DNA from: Alphaproteobacteria bacterium
Lineage (GTDB): Bacteria > Pseudomonadota > Alphaproteobacteria > UBA9219
Length of the DNA stretch: 64,000 nucleotides
Direction of reading: 5' to 3'
NCBI GenBank assembly: GCA_028866275.1
Contig: JAGWIK010000002.1
Span: forward strand, 62,001 to 126,000
Both the position numbers and the translations under genes were made by a program. Of this stretch, positions 23,432 through 49,896 are shown one piece after another; position 1 is the stretch's first letter, and each line of letters opens with the position of its first letter. Under the pieces are notes generated by a model. The model was given only the letters and a program-made list of their open reading frames with translations. It was not told where the DNA came from and ran no database searches.

Positions 23432-24523
23432 TTAAAGAACCTGTGGTGCTTCTGCCGCACGGGGCATATGGCCGAACCCACTCCTTGTTACCGGCACCGT
23501 CGCCGCGCCCGCCGCAGGGAAAGCACCTCTGGCAACCATACGGAAGTGCTCGCGCACGGCTATTCTCTCGCTTCTTAGAAATTCAAGCATGCGTTCATAG
23601 GCAAAACCCAGATGGCGCACGCCATAGCGACGTAGCGCATAAATTTTTATCTCCGCCTGTTCGAGGGTAATTTTCAAATCTTCGTCGGGAAGGCCGACCT
23701 CTCTTTTGGCGGCGAGACTCATGCTCTGAATCGACGGATCCGCGCGCCGCGCCGCGCCATAAGCGTCACGGGACATACAATCCCTGGCCAGATTATTGAA
23801 TTTATCCGCCGCCCTGATGGCCACGTTTGCCGATTTAACCGCAGTCAGGAAAAGCGTGAGTTGCCGGTCGGGAAGATTGAGGTTCGAGATATATCCTGCA
23901 TCGGAAGGCGGTCGCGGATGTTTCCCCGCCTGTTCCGCGATACGGCTATGTCCGGACAGGGCCGGATCATCCCTGTCCGTAAGGTGGTCAAAGACGGTCG
24001 CGCGCAGGAAGGCGCGTTCAACCGGGCTGTTAAGGGGAATAATTTGGCACAACCTTTCGTGGAACTCGTCCTTGTCGAACAAAAGCCCTTTAAGTCTTAT
24101 GGATTTTTGTGTGTCTTCGACGATATCGTGCAGGCATCCCGCAATTGCAAGCATGGTTGGCGGCATGCCGGCCGCCGCGAGGTCTTTGCGGGCGGTTGGA
24201 TTGTTGTACGCCGAATGACCAACCCAGATCACATGGACAAGCTCGGTGACGTTTTTTCCGTATCTGCGTGTATGGCCGATATTGTCGTTGCACAGATATG
24301 ACGATGCCACGGCGTAAAGCGCCATCTGGCAACGTTCGTCCGCAAGCCATTCTTGTCCGTTTTCCCTTCCCTGAGGGGGCGTGTGAAGGAAGTGTCCCGG
24401 GGCGGCGTCGATACCCGAACCTGCAAGGCCGCGCGCGATCAGGGCCGACATTTCATCCGCGGATCCTGTGCCGATAGCCGCGCTTTCTGGCGATGTGTAG
24501 AAGGATGAGGGTAACGTATCCAT
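23432..24523 (-). CDS. HD-domain protein resembling (p)ppGpp hydrolases
   Basis: 363 residues. Residues 131-138 are LHDIVEDT, the metal-binding HD-x-x-ED block of SpoT/Rel/MESH1 hydrolase domains, and IRAADKFNNLARD (236-248) stands where those enzymes have the ADR-hN motif. An upstream histidine (H97 or H103) could be the first metal ligand. There is no synthetase, TGS or ACT domain, so this would be hydrolase-only. The N-terminal about 60 and C-terminal about 60 residues are unlike the family and look disordered. It is divergent from gcrA, with the shared intergenic region in between. The substrate is an inference; other phosphohydrolase activities are possible. Confidence 0.65.
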   Translation of the reverse strand: MDTLPSSFYTSPESAAIGTGSADEMSALIARGLAGSGIDAAPGHFLHTPPQGRENGQEWLADERCQMALYAVASSYLCNDNIGHTRRYGKNVTELVHVIWVGHSAYNNPTARKDLAAAGMPPTMLAIAGCLHDIVEDTQKSIRLKGLLFDKDEFHERLCQIIPLNSPVERAFLRATVFDHLTDRDDPALSGHSRIAEQAGKHPRPPSDAGYISNLNLPDRQLTLFLTAVKSANVAIRAADKFNNLARDCMSRDAYGAARRADPSIQSMSLAAKREVGLPDEDLKITLEQAEIKIYALRRYGVRHLGFAYERMLEFLRSERIAVREHFRMVARGAFPAAGAATVPVTRSGFGHMPRAAEAPQVL

Positions 24524-24610: not shown

Positions 24611-24766
24611 TGTGGATAAGTTGGCCGGTTTTGTCGAAAAAACGCCAAAATCGAATTTGTCAGCCCTGTGAATAAGTTAAGAAATGGTAAACGATTCATA
24701 AGGTTAAAAATCAACATGTCGTTGCTACCCACAATTTATCCACAATATGATGTGTTGGGTAGAATC
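24611..24766. promoter_or_regulatory. DnaA-box cluster upstream of gcrA
   Basis: The 386-base gap at 24524-24909 holds three matches to the DnaA box TTATNCACA: 24611-24619 and 24667-24675 on the - strand (TGTGGATAA, TGTGAATAA) and 24736-24744 on the + strand (TTATCCACA). The stretch between them is AT-rich. Two GANTC sites, the CcrM methylation target of alphaproteobacteria, lie at 24693-24697 and 24762-24766. In Caulobacter DnaA activates gcrA transcription, so a DnaA-controlled gcrA promoter is the simplest reading. Confidence 0.6.
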
Positions 24767-24909
24767 AGTTCGCTTCCTATGGTATGGCTATTGAACCTAA
24801 TCCACTAAATCTAGTGGTTAATATCCAAGGGTTTAGGCGGTTTGTTTCGAAAACATAACGTTTTCGGGCAATCCGTCCCCGCCAACCAACCGCCAGGGAG
24901 CGACGCACA

Positions 24910-25440
24910 ATGACTTGGACCGAGCAAAAAATCCAGATGCTCAAGGATATGTGGGGACACCACAGCGCCAGCGAAATCGCCGAACAAATCGGCGGGCTGA
25001 CCCGCAACGCCGTCATTGGCAAAGCGCACCGCCTGAAACTGTCCACACAAAAATCGTCGGAAGGAGGCGTGTCGATCCAGCGCGTTTCCGGCGGGGCTTC
25101 GTCGTTGGGCAAAACGTCGCGCAAACGGGTTTTGATGCGGACTTTGCCTGTCGTGCCGCCGTCTTCGTCCGCCGTGGTCGTGCGGCAGACGCCGCCGGCC
25201 AAAGATATATTCCGTTCGCTGGAAGGCATCAGCGGCGCGGCGCGCGGCGAAGGCATCGCCGTGACCAAGGCCGGTGATCGTCATTGCCGCTGGCCGGTGG
25301 GCGATCCGCGTTCGCCCGATTTCCGTTTCTGCGGCTGCACGGCGCATGAAGGTTTGCCTTACTGCGTCGACCATGCCCGCGTCGCCTATCAGAATGTCGG
25401 CAAGCGCACGCGCGGATCGTCCGAAGAACGGGCGCATTAA
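24910..25440 (+). CDS. gcrA: Cell-cycle regulator GcrA
   Basis: 176 residues. GcrA is the alphaproteobacterial sigma70-binding cell-cycle activator that acts at GANTC-methylated promoters. The N-terminal helix-turn-helix is clear (MTWTEQKIQMLKDMW, then LTRNAVIGKAHRLKL at 30-44). A low-complexity Ser/Pro linker follows. The C-terminal domain holds HCRWPVGDPRSPDFRFCGC and PYCVDHARVAY, the Cys/His block typical of the family. The start is fixed by the conserved first residues and a GGAGCGACGCACA leader. It is monocistronic, ending at a terminator. Confidence 0.95.
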   Translation: MTWTEQKIQMLKDMWGHHSASEIAEQIGGLTRNAVIGKAHRLKLSTQKSSEGGVSIQRVSGGASSLGKTSRKRVLMRTLPVVPPSSSAVVVRQTPPAKDIFRSLEGISGAARGEGIAVTKAGDRHCRWPVGDPRSPDFRFCGCTAHEGLPYCVDHARVAYQNVGKRTRGSSEERAH

Positions 25441-46153: not shown

Positions 46154-46692
46154 GTTGATGAATTCCCATTTGTGATGTTGCGCGAATGTAGAAGATAGGC
46201 TGGCCGCATGCCAAGGAAAATCCACGCCTTCCAACCATAATTTTATCAAACCGCCATGAATATCAACGGGATGGTTGGGATTAGGCGCCGCGGGCGAATC
46301 ACCTTTTTCTTGTATCTGGCAAGGTTTGGGCGCAGAATGACAGTTAGGCTATGTCGTCACGAAGGCGGTTTGTTTTGTGTTGATATTCCGGTCTGTTCAG
46401 AACCATTAATTGACAAGCAGAAATGTGGCGAAAATAAGAAAGTAATACAAAAAGCAATAAAATTACTTTGTTAATGCCATGGTATTTTCTTTTGTGAATC
46501 AAGGTCAAACCTAGATTAATCGCGCACTGTTTCGGTTTGTTGCCGATAGGTGACAATGACACGATATGTGGTATTATGCCTCGCGTAATATCCCACATCT
46601 TGTGGTTATCACCCTTTTTCACATAGGGGTTATCCACATCTGTTGATAAGTCGGTTCGTTTAGTTCAAGCAGGCGCGTTCGGAGGCCGGAAA
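46154..46692. other. 539-base intergenic region between ispH and nrdA
   Basis: AT-richer than the surrounding genes. I see no convincing gene; open frames of 72 and 97 codons here lack ribosome sites and family features. The right end holds candidate NrdR and DnaA sites. GANTC sites occur at 46296-46300 and 46496-46500. Confidence 0.6.
46559..46638. promoter_or_regulatory. Candidate NrdR boxes and DnaA box upstream of nrdA
   Basis: ACACGATATGTGGTAT (46559-46574) matches the NrdR consensus ACACWATATATWGTGT at 12 of 16 positions, and the inverted repeat CCACATCTTGTGG (46593-46605) lies about three helical turns away, the spacing expected for tandem NrdR boxes. A perfect DnaA box TTATCCACA is at 46630-46638, and TGTTGATAAG follows. 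Control of ribonucleotide reductase by NrdR and DnaA is known in other bacteria. Confidence 0.5.
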
Positions 46693-48543
46693 ATGTTCAA
46701 TTTAATTCAAGTCGAGCACGGAGAGAAAGTGGCTGTGGATTACAGTCGCGATGCGGCGTTGACCCGATTCGGTCATGCCACGCTCGAAGACCGTTATTTG
46801 CTGCCCGGCGAACGCCCGCAGGACATGTTCGCGCGTGTCGCGTCGACCTATGCCGACGATGCCGATCACGCCCAGCGTTTGTATGAGTATATCAGCAAGT
46901 TGTGGTTCATGCCGTCCACCCCCGTGCTGAGCAATGGCGGGGCCAACCGCGGATTGCCGATTTCCTGCTTCCTTAACGAATGCGGCGACAGCCTCGAAGG
47001 CATCGTCAATCTGTGGAATGAGAATGTCTGGCTGGCCGCGCTGGGCGGGGGCATCGGGTCTTATTGGGGCAATTTGCGTTCTATCGGCGAACCGGTCGGG
47101 CGCAACGGCAAAACATCCGGCATCGTGCCGTTCATTCGCGTGCAGGACAGCCTGACGCTTGCCATTTCCCAAGGCAGCCTGCGCCGCGGTTCCGCGGCGT
47201 GCTATCTGCCGATCAGCCATCCGGAAATCGAGGAATTCATTGAAATGCGTCGCCCCACCGGCGGCGACAACAATCGCAAGGCGTTGAACCTGCATCACGG
47301 CGTCGTCATCACCGACGCTTTTATGCGCGCGGTCGAAAATGACGAGGAATGGGCTTTGACCAGCCCCAAGGACCATGCCGTGCTGAGCCGCGTCAGCGCG
47401 CGGGCCTTGTGGATCCGTCTGTTGACGGCGCGCGTCGAAACCGGCGAGCCGTATCTGTTGTTCATCGACACCGTCAATCGCGCCATTCCCGAACATCACA
47501 AACTGGCGGGGCTGGAAGTCAAGATGTCCAACCTGTGCAGTGAAATCACGCTGCCGACCGGCAAGGATAAAGACGGGCAGGAACGTACGGCTGTGTGCTG
47601 CCTGTCGTCGCTTAATCTGGAAAAATTCCTTGAATGGGAAAATCACCCGACATTCATCGAAGACTGCATGCGGTTCCTCGACAATGTGCTGCAGGATTTC
47701 ATCGACCGCGCGCCGGCCAGCATGGCGCGCGCCAAATACGGCGCGTCGCGCGAACGGTCGGTTGGCCTTGGCGTCATGGGATTGCATTCCTTCCTGCAGG
47801 GCCAGAATGTTCCGATCGAAAGCGTGATGGCCAAGGTTTGGAACAAACGCATGTTCCGCCATATCAAGGCGCATGCCGACGAGGCTTCGGTCAAGCTGGC
47901 CCACGAACGGGGCGCATGCCCCGACGCCGCCGATTACGGCGTCATGGAGCGTTTTTCCAACAAGATCGCCATCGCGCCGACGGCGTCGATTTCGATCATT
48001 TGCGGCGGCGCCAGCCCCGGCATCGAACCGATTGCGGCCAATTCATACCTGCACAAGACATTGTCCGGCAGCTTCTCGGTCAAGAATGAATATCTTGCCA
48101 AGGTTCTGGAAAAATACGGCTTTAACGACGAAGAAACTTGGAGCAGCATCACCCAGCATGAAGGGTCGGTGCAGCATCTGGATTTCCTCAGCGATCATGA
48201 AAAGATGGTTTTCAAAACCGCCTTTGAACTCGATCAACGCTGGCTTATCGACCTTGCCGCCGATCGTTCGCCGTTCGTCTGTCAGGCGCAAAGCCTCAAC
48301 GTCTTCCTGCCCGCCAATGTGCATAAACGCGATTTGCACATGATCCATTTCATGGCGTGGAAGAAGGGCGTCAAGAGCCTGTATTACTGCCGGTCGAAAT
48401 CGATGCAGCGCGCGGAATCCGCGGCTCATGTCGCCAAACAGAAGTCGGAGCCAAACGCCGAGATGCCGGCAAATGATGCCGTTGCGACGCCTCTGCCCGA
48501 AGCCGAACCCGCCAATTACGAAGAATGTCTGGCCTGCCAATAG
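46693..48543 (+). CDS. nrdA: Ribonucleotide reductase alpha subunit, class I
   Basis: 616 residues, compact form without an N-terminal ATP-cone. It reduces ribonucleotides to deoxyribonucleotides with NrdB. Active-site elements: ISCFLNECGDS (first redox cysteine), NLCSEITLP (Asn-Cys-Glu radical site), CCLSSLNLEKF (second cysteine) and PTASISIICG. The tail ends EECLACQ, the mobile CxxC that re-reduces the active site. Lack of the cone suggests different allosteric activity control. Confidence 0.95.
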   Translation: MFNLIQVEHGEKVAVDYSRDAALTRFGHATLEDRYLLPGERPQDMFARVASTYADDADHAQRLYEYISKLWFMPSTPVLSNGGANRGLPISCFLNECGDSLEGIVNLWNENVWLAALGGGIGSYWGNLRSIGEPVGRNGKTSGIVPFIRVQDSLTLAISQGSLRRGSAACYLPISHPEIEEFIEMRRPTGGDNNRKALNLHHGVVITDAFMRAVENDEEWALTSPKDHAVLSRVSARALWIRLLTARVETGEPYLLFIDTVNRAIPEHHKLAGLEVKMSNLCSEITLPTGKDKDGQERTAVCCLSSLNLEKFLEWENHPTFIEDCMRFLDNVLQDFIDRAPASMARAKYGASRERSVGLGVMGLHSFLQGQNVPIESVMAKVWNKRMFRHIKAHADEASVKLAHERGACPDAADYGVMERFSNKIAIAPTASISIICGGASPGIEPIAANSYLHKTLSGSFSVKNEYLAKVLEKYGFNDEETWSSITQHEGSVQHLDFLSDHEKMVFKTAFELDQRWLIDLAADRSPFVCQAQSLNVFLPANVHKRDLHMIHFMAWKKGVKSLYYCRSKSMQRAESAAHVAKQKSEPNAEMPANDAVATPLPEAEPANYEECLACQ

Positions 48544-48915: not shown

Positions 48916-49896
48916 ATGTCCGGACTTTTAACGCCCAACCCCGTTTACAAACCGTTCCGCTATCCGTGGGCGTATGAATGCTGGCAGAAGCAGCAGCAAT
49001 TGCACTGGCTGCCCGAAGAAGTGCCGATGGCGGACGACATCAAGGACTGGAAGCAAAAACTTACCGCCGCCGAGCGTAATCTGTTGACGCAGATTTTCCG
49101 TTTCTTCACGCAGGCGGATGTCGAAGTCAATAATTGCTATATGAAAAAATACGCAACCGTGTTCCAGCCGACCGAAGTGCAGATGATGCTGTCGGCCTTT
49201 TCGAACATGGAAACGATTCACATCGCGGCCTATTCGCATTTGCTGGACACGATCGGCATGCCCGAAGTCGAATATTCGGCATTTCTGCGCTACAAGGAAA
49301 TGAAGGATAAATACGACTATTGCCAGGGGTTCAATTGCAGCAATCCGGTCGAGACCGCGCGCACGCTGGCGGTGTTCGGCGGCTTCACCGAAGGGCTGCA
49401 GCTGTTCGCGTCCTTTGCGATGCTGATGAATTTCCCGCGCTTTAACAAGATGAAGGGCATGGGACAGATCGTCACCTGGTCGGTGCGCGACGAAACGTTG
49501 CACACGTTGTCGATGATCCGCTTGTTCCGCACATTCATTGACGAAAACAAATTCATCTGGACCGACAGCTTCCAGCGCGAATTGTACTTGGCCTGCGATA
49601 CCATCGTCGATCACGAAGACGCGTTCATTGATCTGGCGTTCGAATTGGGCGCAATCGAAGGGCTGACGGCGGAAGAAGTAAAATCCTACATCCGCTATAT
49701 CGCCGACCGCCGCCTGACGCAGCTCGGCATGCAGCCGATTTACAAGGTCGCAAAGAATCCGTTGCCGTGGATGGACGACATGATGAATGCGGCCGAACAT
49801 GCCAATTTCTTTGAAGCGCGCGCGACGGAATACAGCCGCGCGGCGACGCAGGGCACATGGGAAGAAGCCTTTGCGGGCATGATTGACGCGGCATAA
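48916..49896 (+). CDS. nrdB: Ribonucleotide reductase beta subunit, class Ia
   Basis: 326 residues. It carries the di-iron tyrosyl radical cofactor. Ligands are visible in FFTQADVEVNNCY, METIHIAAYSHLLDT (Glu, His and the radical Tyr) and SVRDETLHTLSMIRLF. The radical tyrosine is retained, so this is a Tyr-radical enzyme. An AAAGAGG site lies 7 bases before the ATG. Confidence 0.96.
   Translation: MSGLLTPNPVYKPFRYPWAYECWQKQQQLHWLPEEVPMADDIKDWKQKLTAAERNLLTQIFRFFTQADVEVNNCYMKKYATVFQPTEVQMMLSAFSNMETIHIAAYSHLLDTIGMPEVEYSAFLRYKEMKDKYDYCQGFNCSNPVETARTLAVFGGFTEGLQLFASFAMLMNFPRFNKMKGMGQIVTWSVRDETLHTLSMIRLFRTFIDENKFIWTDSFQRELYLACDTIVDHEDAFIDLAFELGAIEGLTAEEVKSYIRYIADRRLTQLGMQPIYKVAKNPLPWMDDMMNAAEHANFFEARATEYSRAATQGTWEEAFAGMIDAA

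Follow-up and report, generated by a model that had tools for sequence, protein, structure and literature searches.

How bacteria match progress through the cell cycle to the supply of nucleotides is the question raised by the promoter of gcrA, the gene for the cell-cycle sigma-70 cofactor GcrA, in this alphaproteobacterial genome. In Caulobacter crescentus, DnaA activates the gcrA promoter (PMC3193534). An earlier note on the window (the whole stretch of DNA that was analysed, 64,000 nucleotides) had described three DnaA boxes within 134 bases and two GANTC sites at the gcrA promoter, and these are confirmed in their places among the following features:

23432-24523, minus strand: divergent gene whose product has an HDIVEDT motif; it is not conserved here and is not judged part of the system
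24611-24619, minus strand: DnaA box 1, TTATCCACA, an exact match inside the conserved block AGAAAGTTGTGGATAA
24667-24675, minus strand: DnaA box 2, TTATTCACA, an exact match
24693-24697: GANTC (GATTC), a candidate CcrM site between DnaA boxes 2 and 3, retained in most genus members
24736-24744, plus strand: DnaA box 3, TTATCCACA, an exact match whose CCACA is common to NrdR-type box 1 (see below)
24762-24766: GANTC (GAATC), about 16 bp 5' of the extended -10
24780-24788, plus strand: extended -10, TGGTATGGC, inferred from the consensus, with TGGTATG (24780-24786) conserved in the alignment
24910-25440, plus strand: gcrA (Pfam PF07750, E 2.4e-35)

TTATNCACA occurs three times without mismatch within 134 bp 5' of gcrA, and the 2.19 Mb assembly holds 33 such sites in total, so that about 0.002 are expected per 134 bp. 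Among the 33 assembly sites there is no second three-box cluster within a few hundred bases; the gcrA cluster is unique. As the sole cluster of its kind, and an AT-rich one, it might serve to start replication or to titrate DnaA instead of controlling a promoter. However, no GC-skew turn occurs within the window, the boxes hold a near-fixed distance to the gcrA start codon while the neighbouring genes vary, and other members of the class also have such boxes in front of gcrA. A function as origin or titration site is very improbable; a replication origin at gcrA found no support in the skew of the window or in the box positions of relatives.

Conservation was assessed in gcrA promoters taken from relatives and from 80 named genome contigs. 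Of the 19 genus and family promoters for which sufficient sequence was available, 18 have an exact DnaA box 1 (as AGAAAGTTGTGGATAA), and boxes 2 and 3 are each exact in about half of the genus and family promoters; these figures, like all conservation counts given here, come from genomes that are non-independent samples. In the promoter alignment, the order, orientation and spacing of the boxes are unchanged across genus and family, and box 3 reads TCATCCACA in most genus members. A DnaA box is also present in 26 of 29 gcrA promoters of the Micavibrionales (grouped here by record title and similarity), where it usually lies some 150 bp ahead of the start codon. Across the class, 28 of 86 sampled gcrA promoters have one, against an expectation of 0.8. 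The link from DnaA to gcrA, which the earlier note had supposed to be conserved, is well supported as sequence, and phylogenetic footprinting of the gap, suggested there as a check, recovers the boxes among relatives. The DnaA motif at gcrA was rated as poorly conserved or not conserved in a 2010 survey (PMC2877005), which the conservation described here extends. As in Caulobacter crescentus, a DnaA box lies upstream of gcrA; however, Caulobacter has one box there, whereas this promoter has three in a fixed layout, one of them fused with an NrdR-type box.

It had also been proposed that DnaA might act on the divergent HD gene. This gene adjoins gcrA in only two other relatives, at about 27% identity (tblastn), and the DnaA boxes persist next to unrelated neighbours. 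Because the divergent gene varies among relatives while the boxes remain, the boxes belong to gcrA, and control of the HD gene by DnaA was rejected, the gene not being conserved at this place. The encoded protein has no Pfam or NCBIfam matches; its HDIVEDT motif is of the kind seen in RelA/SpoT-type hydrolases. Full CtrA sites (TTAA-N7-TTAA) are absent from the gcrA promoter in the window and only sporadic in relatives, and an Rfam search gave no match at this promoter. The same genome carries a second, divergent GcrA-family gene (G000:C78:11292-11702, L120; E 7e-15).

The promoter alignment, made without an NrdR hypothesis, contains a conserved TTATCCACAAnAT..tGTGt across DnaA box 3, further blocks of GAATC (often GAATCGATTC) and TGGTATG, and then CCACAACATCTAGTGG downstream. 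The extent first proposed for the element, 24611-24766, does contain the DnaA boxes but is only part of it, as conserved sequence continues to 24802-24817. That reading of the promoter was incomplete: it had missed NrdR-type operators that are at least as conserved as the DnaA boxes. The NrdR-type set is helically phased and comprises:

24709-24724: NrdR-type box 0, AATCAACATGTCGTTG, weak, 31 bp before box 1, from a genome-wide tandem search
24740-24755: NrdR-type box 1, the 16-bp palindrome CCACAATATGATGTGT, fused with DnaA box 3 via CCACA
24770-24785: possible NrdR-type box over the -10 region, TCGCTTCCTATGGTAT, weak and tentative, in the phase of boxes 1 and 2
24802-24817: NrdR-type box 2, the palindrome CCACTAAATCTAGTGG, 3' of the inferred start site and conserved through the order

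NrdR loaded with dATP and ATP binds DNA and then represses (PMC9110341). Its known sites are 16-bp palindromes that come in pairs, spaced by about 31-32 bp and often overlying the promoter (PMC2892513; PMC12051234), with integer helix turns between box centres (PMC2892513; PMC12051234; PMC9110341); Listeria nrdAB has four NrdR boxes (PMC2892513; PMC12051234). The gcrA promoter resembles the nrd operons of E. coli, Salmonella, Streptomyces and Listeria in having such palindromes at about this spacing over the promoter, but its target is a cell-cycle regulator, a DnaA box is merged into one of its boxes, and the strong boxes (24740 and 24802) are separated by 62 bp. The strict 31-bp pair (24709 and 24740) consists of one strong and one weak box. 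At the 24770 place, relatives have better NrdR-box matches, for example TCGTAACATATGGTAT. Genome-wide, CCACWAHATNTWGTGG is matched with zero mismatches at 24802-24817 only.

The reductase promoters of the same genomes serve as a reference: nrdA and a class II reductase-like gene (L167:6357-8426, minus strand, which is G000:C69:20359-22425, minus strand; 689 aa) bear the same palindromes paired at 31 bp. In the window, these features are:

46559-46574: nrdA NrdR box 1, ACACGATATGTGGTAT, over the inferred -10, reference operator
46590-46605: nrdA NrdR box 2, ATCCCACATCTTGTGG, 31 bp downstream of box 1, reference operator
46693-48543, plus strand: nrdA, class I ribonucleotide reductase alpha (PF02867, E 1e-121; NLCSE motif), reference NrdR target
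48916-49896, plus strand: nrdB, ribonucleotide reductase beta (PF00268, E 3e-76)

NrdR itself is encoded in the genome, retaining the RRRR motif and the D/R contact pair (KDSR) of its DNA-contact residues, and was found in 29 of 32 relatives. At the class II reductase-like gene, most family members have the second NrdR-type box merged with a DnaA box (CTTGTGGATAA).

Some further observations concern these reductase and nrdR loci. The 689-aa class II (B12) reductase relative lacks the NxCxE catalytic motif and occurs alongside a normal class I nrdAB; it is retained at about 700 aa in most family members, and distant class members have a full-length NrdJ with NPCSE. The protein under NrdR-type boxes looks like a retained, inactive reductase relative. 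A possible DnaA site, TTATCCACA, lies at 46630-46638 in the window, 3' of the nrdA NrdR boxes; the same sequence is found about 60 bp before the nrdA start codon in several relatives and directly before the nrdR start codon in this genome (G000:C73:90092-90100; L164, about 1593-1601).

Two matrices match the gcrA palindromes to the NrdR box. The first was trained on 27 reductase promoters only, with the nrdA sites in the training set and the gcrA sites excluded. Among the 63,985 16-mers of the window it places gcrA 24740 best (18.6), and gcrA 24802 (16.4), nrdA 46590 (16.4) and nrdA 46559 (16.0) complete the top four, the fifth scoring 12.5; it also finds the tandems of E. coli nrdHIEF, nrdAB and nrdDG at 31, 32 and 31 bp. 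The second, built from six boxes of three E. coli nrd promoters, ranks gcrA 24802 first, gcrA 24740 second and nrdA third and fourth of 63,985 window positions, in a test that is not fully blind because the E. coli boxes were placed using the alphaproteobacterial matrix. With the same matrix, the 31-bp tandems in the window score 21.3 at nrdA, 18.3 at gcrA (24709/24740) and 7.7 for the third. A matrix-free genome search for the tandem core with at most one mismatch returns six places. Three fall within long reading frames, and the only ones outside genes are those at gcrA, nrdA and the class II reductase-like gene.

These palindromes might be occupied by another, unnamed regulator of reductase genes, as the palindrome-binding protein is assigned from sequence and box 0 departs from the consensus. 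Such a regulator is very unlikely, however, given that the same motif and 31-32 bp pairing characterise NrdR sites at the nrd promoters of distant bacteria, that E. coli boxes retrieve the gcrA sites and that NrdR is encoded in the genome.

The NrdR-type sites at gcrA extend well beyond this genome. Within the order, a site scoring at least 13 is present in 29 of 29 gcrA promoters, against 0.07 expected from dinucleotide shuffles and 1 of 307 control tiles, and the best box pairs stand 31, 32 or 62 bp apart in 22 of the 23 order promoters that have a pair. At the same threshold, sites occur in 16 of 40 other alphaproteobacterial gcrA promoters (0.08 expected; 0 of 750 tiles). A class-wide sample searched for sites of at least 11 yields 46 of 86 promoters, with 0.7 promoters expected, and 28 of 44 other alphaproteobacterial families. 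DnaA and NrdR-type motifs are both present at gcrA in 12 families, and a DnaA box and an NrdR-type box have CCACA in common, in exact register, in 18 gcrA promoters from several families. Caulobacter-like promoters (L198-L200) have weaker NrdR-type matches, of which L199 and L200 are phased at 31 bp. In the Micavibrionales, whose gcrA promoters do have DnaA boxes, just one promoter of 29 has an NrdR-type site; thus, the NrdR-type link at gcrA, as judged by these motifs, is not universal.

That the Micavibrionales keep DnaA boxes alone, and that CCACA occurs in both motifs, would suit a promoter controlled by DnaA only, perhaps with GcrA at GANTC, where the palindromes arose by chance or as by-products of DnaA boxes sharing CCACA. 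This is very unlikely, because the palindrome CCACTAAATCTAGTGG has no DnaA-box overlap and is nevertheless conserved through the order, because sites are found in every order promoter at a frequency far above expectation, and because the boxes are phased at 31 and 62 bp. In addition, box 3 of most genus members has lost the DnaA consensus but retained the palindrome half.

The GANTC sites may add another layer. GANTC is depleted in the window (97 seen versus 254 expected), and because the window avoids this sequence, a pair of GANTC sites within 74 bp is notable. The genome also encodes a CcrM-type RAMA-domain protein, and avoidance together with such a gene is as expected where CcrM methylates GANTC. 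The GAATC about 16 bp before the extended -10 is found in 15 of 20 relatives, often doubled as GAATCGATTC, giving a conserved GANTC at the core promoter. The region thus resembles GcrA-CcrM promoters with methylated GANTC, in that GANTC adjoins the core promoter and a CcrM-type gene is present; it would differ from them in autoregulation of gcrA, for which no published case was found. Feedback of GcrA on its own promoter via GANTC is plausible, as a weaker extra possibility and a guess.

What is observed is the boxes and their conservation, their agreement with nrd promoters in motif and spacing, and an NrdR gene in the genome; from this we infer that NrdR binds at gcrA, that it represses, that it competes with DnaA and that this bears on cell-cycle timing. 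With a probability of roughly 70%, DnaA and NrdR jointly control the gcrA promoter, where dATP-loaded NrdR represses and competes with DnaA. DnaA would bind the upstream boxes and activate gcrA, as in Caulobacter. At high dATP, NrdR would occupy the phased boxes across the promoter and block RNA polymerase, and NrdR on the shared TTATCCACAATATGATGTGT element would exclude DnaA. As both proteins cannot easily bind this element together, the promoter would compare initiator activity with the dATP level. Once replication consumes dATP, NrdR would leave and gcrA would rise with the ribonucleotide reductase genes.

NrdR might instead activate gcrA, or loop between boxes rather than block polymerase. 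In Pseudomonas aeruginosa, topA expression is lower in an nrdR mutant, which was read as activation by NrdR (PMC4409342), and the strong gcrA boxes are 62 bp apart; yet the boxes cover the inferred -10 and the DNA just 3' of it, which is the arrangement at nrd promoters under repression, so that activation or looping is unlikely. Like gcrA, topA has an NrdR box without being a reductase gene (PMC4409342), but it is a DNA topology gene with a single box, whereas gcrA has several phased boxes that are widespread in the class.

In a 2025 study of Caulobacter, S-phase entry was delayed, through an undefined pathway, when dNTPs were raised, and deletion of nrdR gave more rather than less of the spreading phenotype associated with a longer swarmer phase, additively with raised dNTPs (PMC12186491). 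Because the nrdR deletion adds to the effect, NrdR action on gcrA does not explain the dNTP delay, at least in Caulobacter.

DnaA control of gcrA and NrdR operators as such are already known. The literature searched, with RegPrecise and the 2005 NrdR survey lying outside that search, yielded no description of NrdR-type operators at gcrA, of how widely they occur in the class or of a box fused from DnaA and NrdR sites. It is somewhat better than an even bet that gcrA, the gene of an S-phase regulator, belongs to the NrdR regulon across Alphaproteobacteria, and that DnaA and the dATP sensor compete at the fused box, so that entry into the GcrA programme depends on the deoxynucleotide pool, coordinately with ribonucleotide reductase. 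If so, a dATP-sensing repressor at the gene for a master cell-cycle regulator would connect nucleotide supply directly to the cell cycle, and the role of NrdR, seen so far as repressing reductase genes, would extend to cell-cycle control. The shared box would be a simple means to weigh initiator activity against the dATP level.
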